Shown here: positions 1 to 3,298 of the stretch, in pieces
Layout of the letters: every line of letters starts with the position of its first letter
How positions within the stretch are numbered: the first letter of the stretch is position 1
Assembly (NCBI GenBank): GCA_902551895.1
Contig: CACDEU010000011.1
Span: 1 to 35,793, forward strand
DNA length: 35,793 nucleotides
DNA from: an uncultured Pelagibacteraceae bacterium
GTDB taxonomy: Bacteria > Pseudomonadota > Alphaproteobacteria > Pelagibacterales > Pelagibacteraceae
Direction: 5' to 3'
The notes under the pieces: generated by a model
Database searches by the model: none
Told to the model about the DNA's origin: nothing
Seen by the model: only the letters and a program-made list of their open reading frames with translations
Program-made: the position numbers and the translations under genes

Positions 1-2
1 TG

Positions 3-476
3 ATTGAAACAATCAATAAAATTGTTAGAACTCAAAGATTAATTCTAAGTGAGTTTGGTAGAGAAGCAACACCAGAAGAGTTATCAAAAAAACTTAGAAT
101 GCCATTAGACAAAGTAAGAAAAGTTCTTAAAATTTCAAAAGAACCCGTTTCTTTAGAAAAACCAGTTGGAGATGAAGAAGATAGCAGCCTTGGTGATTTT
201 ATAGAAGATACCAAAGCATTAGCGCCATTAGAGCAAGCTATAAAATCTAATTTAAGCGAAGCAACAACTAAAATCTTATCTACTTTAACTCCTAGAGAAG
301 AAAGAGTTTTAAGAATGAGATTTGGTGTAGGCATGAATACTGATCATACTTTAGAAGAAGTTGGATTACAATTTTCTGTTACGAGAGAAAGAATTCGACA
401 AATTGAAGCTAAAGCGCTTAGAAAATTAAAACATCCAAGCCGATCTAAACAACTAAAAAGTTTCTTAGAAAGTTAA
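3..476 (+). CDS. rpoD: RNA polymerase primary sigma factor RpoD, C-terminal part (5' truncated by window edge)
   Basis: This is the C-terminal end of the housekeeping sigma-70 factor. The frame is open from base 3 and continues through the first internal ATG at 99, so the gene extends left of the window. Region 3 comes first, with the pattern IETINKI...[12 protein letters not shown]. It is followed by DFIED, which is typical of RpoD rather than RpoH. Region 4.2 holds the helix-turn-helix that reads the -35 box, around [20 protein letters not shown], and then the RpoD-type tail [12 protein letters not shown]. The stop at 474-476 lies 6 nt before a tRNA gene on the same strand, so the two may share a transcript. 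The family assignment is very sure; only about 157 residues are visible. Confidence 0.96.
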
Positions 477-482
477 ATATTT

Positions 483-557
483 GGGCCGTTAGCTCAATAG
501 TAGAGTACTGCATTGACATTGCAGGGGTAGTTGGAGCGTAACCAACACGGCCCACCA
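483..557 (+). tRNA. tRNA-Val (anticodon GAC) with unusual D/T-loop elbow
   Basis: A full cloverleaf with encoded CCA can be folded by hand. The acceptor pairs 483-489 with 547-553 (7 of 7 pairs). The D stem is 492-495 with 503-506. The anticodon stem is 508-512 with 520-524, and its loop TTGACAT gives anticodon GAC (Val). The T stem 530-534 pairs perfectly with 542-546, and CCA is at 555-557. The T loop reads AGCGTAA instead of the usual TTCRANY, and the D loop reads AATAGTA, with A in place of the first G of the GG pair. All stems are intact, which argues for a working tRNA rather than a decayed one. The gene begins 6 nt after the rpoD stop with no room for its own promoter. Confidence 0.88.
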
Positions 558-617: not shown

Positions 618-694
618 GGGCCTGTAGCTCAGTTGGTTAGAGCAGTACACTCATAATGTATTGGTCCCAGGTTCGAGTCCTGGCGGGCCCACCA
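618..694 (+). tRNA. tRNA with CAU anticodon, probably tRNA-Ile2 (lysidine-modified), possibly elongator Met
   Basis: This is a canonical cloverleaf with encoded CCA at 692-694. The acceptor pairs 618-624 with 684-690 (one U:G). The D stem is 627-630 with 640-643 and the loop contains GG. The anticodon stem is 645-649 with 657-661, and the loop CTCATAA gives anticodon CAT. The T loop is the normal TTCGAGT. A CAU tRNA can be initiator Met, elongator Met or Ile2. The first acceptor pair is a G:C Watson-Crick pair, which argues against an initiator. The pairs C4:G69 and C5:G68 match the determinants reported for the lysidine synthetase TilS on E. coli tRNA-Ile2, so Ile2 is favoured by inference. 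It converges with mlaC, whose stop is 8 nt away. Confidence 0.9.
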
Positions 695-2935: not shown

Positions 2936-3298
2936 CAAGCCAGATAAATGACTTATCGCTTTAATTAATTTTAAAGAGGAAAGTCCGGGCTCTACAAAGA
3001 CACAGTGCCAGTTAATGGCTGGCGGGGGCAACCCCAGGGATAGTGCCACAGAAAATAAACCGCCTCATCAAGGCAAGGGTGAAAAGGTGTGGTAAGAGCG
3101 CACCGGCTGTTTGGTAACAAGCAGCGCATGGAAAACCCCACTGAGAGCAAAACTGAGTAGAGATGACATTGTTAGAAATAACTAAAAGCAGTCTTTGGCT
3201 AGTCATCAGGGTTAGTTGCTTGAGCCTTAAAGTGATTTAAGGCCTAGAGAAATGATAGGTTTAAATGACAGAACCCGGCTTATAATTTATCTGGCACT
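2936..3298 (+). ncRNA. rnpB: RNase P catalytic RNA, bacterial class A
   Basis: This is the RNA subunit of RNase P, which trims tRNA 5' ends. The hallmark GAGGAAAGTCCGGGCTC block begins at 2976. It is followed by the GCCACAGAAAATAAACCGCC-type region near 3045, the AAGAGCGCACCGG segment near 3094, GCTTGAGCC near 3218 and the terminal ACAGAACCCGGCTTAT block near 3268. The ends are set by a perfect 11-bp helix P1 (2939-2949 with 3285-3295), which closes the molecule. The total of about 360 nt is normal for class A. The stretch between the amidase gene and mraZ (2895-3440) holds this RNA followed by the mraZ promoter. The exact 3' end is not certain to a few bases. Confidence 0.95.

Follow-up and report, generated by a model that had tools for sequence, protein, structure and literature searches.

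The tRNA-Val(GAC) gene of an uncultured SAR11 (Pelagibacteraceae) bacterium, located at positions 483-557 of the forward strand of the 35,793 nucleotide stretch of DNA analysed here (the window), is a real and conserved gene, preserved far beyond chance, that does not meet the canonical requirement for G18-U55 and U54-A58 tertiary pairs at the tRNA elbow, the corresponding letters being A18, G55, A54 and T58. Its product is likely, with a probability of roughly 0.72, to be a working elongator tRNA that closes its elbow with a different tertiary lock, a reading made without structural, expression, charging or modification data. The contact between positions 18 and 55 keeps every tRNA in its L shape. 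The G18-Psi55 and T54-A58 contacts have been treated as universal, and form the basis of tRNA finders, modification studies and models of translocation. SAR11 are the most abundant bacteria in the ocean, and TruB is near-universal. The comparisons below amount to natural double-mutant cycles: the two partner positions have repeatedly changed in concert, in numerous phage tRNAs as well as in tRNAs essential to a dominant marine clade, and the SAR11 elbow switches accompany the deletion of truB in the genera concerned. The elbow's chemical needs, the purpose of Psi55 and the use of a modification-free elbow by phages thus become directly testable.

The rewired tRNA-Val(GAC) gene

ARAGORN and the Rfam tRNA model (RF00005; match spanning 483-554, 53.6 bits, as against 72.7 bits for the neighbouring tRNA gene) both identify the gene, and together with the MFE fold support a cloverleaf with four paired stems, a seven nucleotide anticodon loop and an encoded CCA end (555-557). 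All stems pair (GGGCCGT/ACGGCCC, GCTC/GAGT, CTGCA/TGCAG and GTTGG/CCAAC), the terminal pair of the D-stem being G10-U25, and the anticodon GAC (515-517) serves the GUU and GUC valine codons. With numbering anchored on G19 and C56, the D-loop AATAGTA (496-502, as assigned by ARAGORN) consists of A14 (496), A15 (497), T16 (498), A18 (499), G19 (500), T20 (501) and A21 (502). The T-loop AGCGTAA (535-541), an assignment supported by ARAGORN and by the 18-55 and 54-58 covariation described below, consists of A54 (535), G55 (536), C56 (537), G57 (538), T58 (539), A59 (540) and A60 (541). The variable loop GGGTA (525-529) ends in A48 (529), such that the Levitt position is occupied by two purines, A15 and A48. 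G19 and C56 are both kept, as judged from their letters only, there being no pairing data.

These results bear out the original prediction of a tRNA-Val(GAC) with four perfect stems and the loops AATAGTA and AGCGTAA, and its reading of the letters as A18-G55 and A54-T58, with G19-C56 retained and A-A at 15-48, held exactly. The further claim that the loss of T54 and T55 removes modification sites held in so far as no U54 or U55 is encoded; the absence of Psi55 itself is untested.

The 3' end of rpoD (1-476, forward strand), encoding sigma-70 regions 3-4 (Pfam Sigma70_r4/r3), lies directly upstream, six bases from the tRNA gene, and marks a conserved locus shared by rewired and normal-elbow relatives alike. 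The next gene downstream encodes a tRNA(CAU) (618-694, forward strand; ARAGORN and Rfam) with a normal elbow and the T-loop TTCGAGT. The window also contains a bacterial class A RNase P RNA at 2940-3298 (295.8 bits), which presumably must process rewired tRNAs.

The 75-mer of the gene is 100% identical in approximately 38 of 60 sampled species-level genomes of the genus, and 19 identical Val genes were present among the SAR11 matches of a genome scan. Among relatives at 84-96% identity, substitutions in the acceptor, anticodon and T stems leave base pairing intact, and six genomes with different, still paired stems have both AATAGTA and AGCGTAA letter for letter. That identity, together with stems that change while the loops stay fixed, indicates that the gene is neither a pseudogene nor an error. 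Natural variants still combining A18 with G55 include AAAAGTA with AGCGTTA, AATAGTTA with AGCGTAA, and AATAGTA with AGCATAA, and a purine occupies position 57 in every one listed. The tRNA-Val of sister family f2 is normal and ancestral-looking (AGTGGTA/TTCGATC).

No second Val-GAC gene, one of the checks proposed for the original prediction, was found either in the bacterium's own assembly (1.03 Mb, 81% complete) or in the complete, single-contig 1.34 Mb genome of a relative, G012, the 32 tRNAs of which include exactly one Val-GAC (rewired) and one Val-TAC (normal). Val-TAC could, in principle, decode every valine codon, and for this reason the strongest functional case is provided by tRNA-Phe rather than by tRNA-Val.

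In most sampled genomes of genus g1, the gene lies just after rpoD, while in g7, g8 and some g1 genomes Val genes are found away from it. A second proposed check, the form of the loop at this locus in relatives, found most to be rewired and a normal-elbow tRNA-Val (G18, T55 and T54-A58) just downstream of rpoD in four genomes (G037, G121, G122 and G305). Such normal-loop relatives, which the original prediction had named as a finding that would refute it, are not a sign of a pseudogene, because both loops switch together and the rewired form prevails among relatives. On a tree of rpoD from 14 genomes, the distribution of the two forms needs four changes, at least three of them forced by well-supported branches. 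As g7 and g8 are also rewired, the normal forms at the rpoD locus are best read as reversions or gene replacements that altered the two loops jointly.

Coupled changes at positions 18 and 55

Searches in the same D-stem context found neither A18 with T55 nor G18 with G55 in any of 147 genomes of the order. Together with the stem-divergent relatives and the covariation at 54-58, this supports the earlier claim that partner positions have changed in a coordinated manner and not through decay.

Outside SAR11, pairs were counted only in tRNAs not themselves selected by any pattern, within viral and non-SAR11 loci, position 18 being scored in short D-loops by requiring A14 and R15 ahead of it. There were 41 A18/G55, one G18/G55, four A18/T55 and 610 G18/T55 tRNAs (Fisher p 2.4e-59, which is descriptive only, as loci were fetched for at least one match and related sequences are not independent). 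At least 120 stretches of the IMG/VR viral collection carry A18 with G55, and ARAGORN confirmed 46 such tRNAs in 80 viral loci examined. A real G55 in the matched tRNA was found in none of 80 loci from the viral scan for G18 with G55; the matches to that pattern were rejected as register artefacts, all 14 that were ARAGORN tRNAs having TTC loops. Single A18/T55 combinations do occur in phages, with 25 tRNAs confirmed by ARAGORN. U55 tolerates A18, and G55 almost always requires A18 or, rarely, C18.

The swapped tRNAs of phage arrays include those for Ile, Gly, Phe, Met, Asn, Arg, His and Lys, among others. Amongst bacterial contigs outside SAR11, A18-G55 is found in tRNA-Phe of Anaerolineae, Chloroflexi, Omnitrophota and Nomurabacteria, in tRNA-Thr(GGT) of Elusimicrobia and in tRNA-His of Daviesbacteria. 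One 12.7 kb viral contig (L165, IMGVR_UViG_3300032397_000008) has more than 12 tRNAs of different isotypes with G55, mostly accompanied by A18, and in this phage a large part of the tRNA complement seems to have been switched over. Two loci from Verrucomicrobia bins (L485 and L466) hold dense tRNA arrays, probably of phage origin, in which C18 stands opposite G55 in some tRNAs beside others with A18-G55, raising the possibility of a further allowed pair. In Streptomyces and Streptacidiphilus (L467, L479, L481 and L515), a tRNA-Gly(TCC) with A18 has a T-loop of six nucleotides, TGCRAT, instead of seven, and in Nostoc (L447 and L450) there are two A18-G55 tRNAs, Thr-AGT and one with the anticodon CUA. 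No cultured example was found among the phages S-PM2, DLP6, DSS3_MAL1, Goe8 and S-CREM1, which have TTC loops except for the tRNA-Phe of DLP6 (T-loop ATCGTTA). The literature searched held no description of A18-G55 tRNAs.

Coupled changes at positions 54, 58, 48 and 60

Among 1,474 different tRNAs with a seven nucleotide T-loop, the 54-58 combination was T-A in 1368, A-T in 59, A-A in 21, G-G in 12 and C-A in 10, with T-T never seen. G54 was paired with G58 in 12 of 13 tRNAs; viral loci L150, L183, L206 and L212 hold phage tRNAs combining G54/G58 with a purine at 60. The A54/T58 form is found both with T55 (25 tRNAs) and with G55 (34), so the 18-55 and 54-58 swaps are separable. Position 60 is a purine in 68 of 75 A54 tRNAs, as against 32 of 1,286 with T54, and A48 is likewise present in 35/75 and 87/1,288, respectively. 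Comparison shows, then, that position 18-55 is G-U or A-G, that 54-58 is T-A or A-T (rarely A-A, G-G or C-A), and that each swap changes on both sides together.

The swap on other SAR11 tRNAs and the loss of TruB

Unforeseen by the original prediction were the occurrence of the 18-55 swap on tRNA-Phe and tRNA-Thr, the absence of truB and the presence of the same modules in phage tRNAs. The tRNA-Phe(GAA) of the bacterium's own genome, with D-loop AGTAGTA and T-loop TGCGATT, combines A18 and G55 with a normal T54-A58, and A18 with G55 is found in tRNA-Phe(GAA) of most of the genus. In the complete genome G012, the single tRNA-Phe gene (GAA; AGGAGTA/TGCGAAT) is swapped, as is tRNA-Thr(GGT) (AGGTAGTA/TGCAAGT), the latter in this one relative. 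Both the Phe and Thr swaps are carried on SAR11-like stems, which may point to change in place. Of 297 genomes sampled from the order, pattern tables show A18 with G55 in 218, comprising 182/198 of g1, 27/29 of g8, 7/7 of g9 and 2/4 of g7; amongst these 297 genomes it was found in none from g5, g6, g10 or sister family f2, and a further 380 alphaproteobacterial genomes from outside the order contained no instance. The tRNA-Phe of f2 is normal and ancestral-looking (AGTTGGTA/TTCAAGT).

In bacteria, Psi55 is synthesised by TruB. The TruB_N profile (PF01509) matched no genome of g1 (0/198), g8 (0/29), g9 (0/7) or g10 (0/1), a set of 235 genomes that includes several single contigs estimated as 99-100% complete, and was present in 2/2 of g5, 3/3 of g6, 4/4 of g7, 42/53 of f2 and all 14 control genomes. 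The gene order is infB-rbfA-truB-rpsO-pnp in genome G101; in G012, by Pfam identities, rbfA is followed seven bases on by rpsO and then by pnp, with truB absent between them (G012:C1:1216431-1217055).

No swapped tRNA-Phe was found in a TruB-bearing genome among the 297 of the order. A normal tRNA-Phe is kept in 41 of the 198 TruB-less g1 genomes, and most other SAR11 tRNAs retain U55 though TruB is missing. Since tRNA-Val is rewired in two g7 genomes (G155 and G213) despite the presence of TruB, loss of truB is no precondition for the Val change. Loss of truB hence seems to permit the Phe swap, being neither required nor sufficient in general, and even this association is no more than suggestive, because the loss may have been a single event and the number of independent changes is small.

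Alternative explanations

The alternative that survives best, as a possibility, is that the Val gene entered SAR11 by horizontal transfer as a phage or mobile tRNA. Its elbow would then have been selected in phages, perhaps so that the tRNA could work unmodified or evade host enzymes acting on the elbow by binding or cutting it, and SAR11 would simply have inherited it. In its favour, the exact module of A48, A54/T58 and A18/G55 is found in the tRNA-Val(TAC) of four viral contigs, the closest of which matches the SAR11 gene at 53 of 75 positions, nearly all of them within the core; many swapped isotypes are present in phage arrays; and in g7, in g8 and in part of g1 the Val genes do not lie beside rpoD. 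Against it, no close phage relative of the SAR11 gene emerged: a BLAST search of 50,697 phage records with the Val gene returned nothing, the module never had a GAC anticodon in the viral matches, and the stems of the swapped Phe and Thr tRNAs suggest in-place change. Such a source remains plausible and unproven.

It is unlikely that the changes reflect neutral drift following the loss of truB, in which positions 18 and 55 would have varied with no specific new pair arising between them. The confinement of the Phe swap to TruB-less genera and the repeated switches within the clade would both fit this explanation. However, drift would be expected to generate many combinations, when only A18 with G55 and G18 with T55 are seen in the order, and the rewiring of Val in TruB-bearing g7 and the same coupling in phages also count against it. 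Less likely still is a non-translational role for a tRNA excluded from the ribosome, comparable with the staphylococcal cell-wall tRNA-Gly and its degenerate elbow. Such tRNAs are set apart by elbow substitutions, but tRNA-Val(GAC) keeps G19-C56, no other GAC tRNA was found, and the sole tRNA-Phe, which must translate, has the same elbow. Finally, a pseudogene, a misassembled sequence or the random decay of a gene that the cell can spare, for which could be cited the readability of GUN codons by Val-TAC, the few relatives with a normal loop and an Rfam score below that of normal tRNAs, is all but excluded by the identity across approximately 38 species, by stem changes that keep pairing around fixed loops, by the same 18-55 swap on the sole tRNA-Phe gene and by the near absence of single mutants.

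A putative composite lock at the tRNA elbow

The preferred reading remains that of a working tRNA with an alternative lock, and the original wording, under which the tRNA, if the only one for GAC, has to function without the standard lock, is better put as working with a different one. In the normal elbow, a U-turn (U55-C56-R57) starts at U55, which is touched by a G18 inserted between positions 57 and 58 (PMC4810234). Mutants at 18-55 have been studied in kinetic assays of translocation (Pan et al. 2006, cited in PMC4810234). In other RNAs, a UGNRA lonepair triloop and an outside A together form a composite GNRA tetraloop (PMC2258182). By inference, and without three-dimensional geometry, G55 would convert the U-turn into a G-N-R turn. 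A18, reaching in from the D-loop to insert between 57 and 58, would complete a composite GNRA tetraloop (G55-A18) that would replace the G18-Psi55 lock. G19-C56, which provides the flat surface recognised by the ribosome, RNase P and other partners, is kept, and the rewired elbow offers no U55 for Psi55. Such a lock would explain both the need of G55 for A18 and the lack of any need for Psi55. As the swap reached the essential SAR11 tRNA-Phe only in truB-less genera, the loss of Psi55 probably lifted the constraint holding other tRNAs at U55.

A bolder reading, which may as easily be wrong as right, is that a second, modular and modification-independent elbow, built on the composite GNRA lock of A18 and G55, to which an A54-U58 closing pair may be added, recurs in phages and scattered bacteria, and that SAR11, with truB deleted, fixed it on essential tRNAs. 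Were this true, much of the protein synthesis in the ocean would proceed without the G18-Psi55 contact that textbooks present as universal.

Comparison with known systems

The closest known motif is the UGNRA/R1 lonepair triloop of the TPP riboswitch and rRNA (Barrick and Breaker 2007, PMC2258182), the consensus of which is fitted exactly by SAR11 tRNA-Phe (UGCGA) and tRNA-Thr (UGCAA); the difference lies in its position, here the tRNA elbow, with A18 inferred, without three-dimensional data, to act as the outside A. The tRNA-Val fits only in part: it has G at the second and a purine at the fourth position of the T-loop, and an outside A that co-varies with that G, but the trans Watson-Crick/Hoogsteen U-A lone pair closing the triloop, present in Phe and Thr, is replaced by A54/T58, a putative pair of as yet unestablished geometry. 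This is likely to be a known RNA motif in a tRNA position not previously described in the literature searched, subject to its geometry being inferred.

With canonical bacterial tRNA-Val (RF00005), the rewired gene shares the cloverleaf, the GAC anticodon, U8, A14, U33, G19-C56, G53-C61 and an encoded CCA, as well as a locus also held by normal-elbow orthologues. It differs in having A18-G55, A54-U58, A15-A48 and A60 in place of a pyrimidine, and in lacking any U54 or U55 to be modified. Eukaryotic tRNA-Ala combines R15/A48 with A54/A58, an arrangement of which Westhof et al. (2020, PMC7566577) reported no bacterial example. The SAR11 tRNA-Val resembles it in R15/A48, A54 and R60 (A15, A48, A54 and A60), but has U58 instead of A58 and no extra U17, and the 18-55 pair of tRNA-Ala is unchanged. 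In contrast to that report, the link between A48 and A54 is present in the bacterial and phage tRNAs examined here.

The Steinberg group reportedly selected, in vivo, suppressor tRNAs with altered D- and T-loops, including some with G-G at 54-58. Alternative 54-58 pairs such as G-G are common to those suppressors and to the phage tRNAs found here; unlike them, the SAR11 case is natural, conserved and carried on essential tRNAs, and combines A54-U58 with A18-G55.
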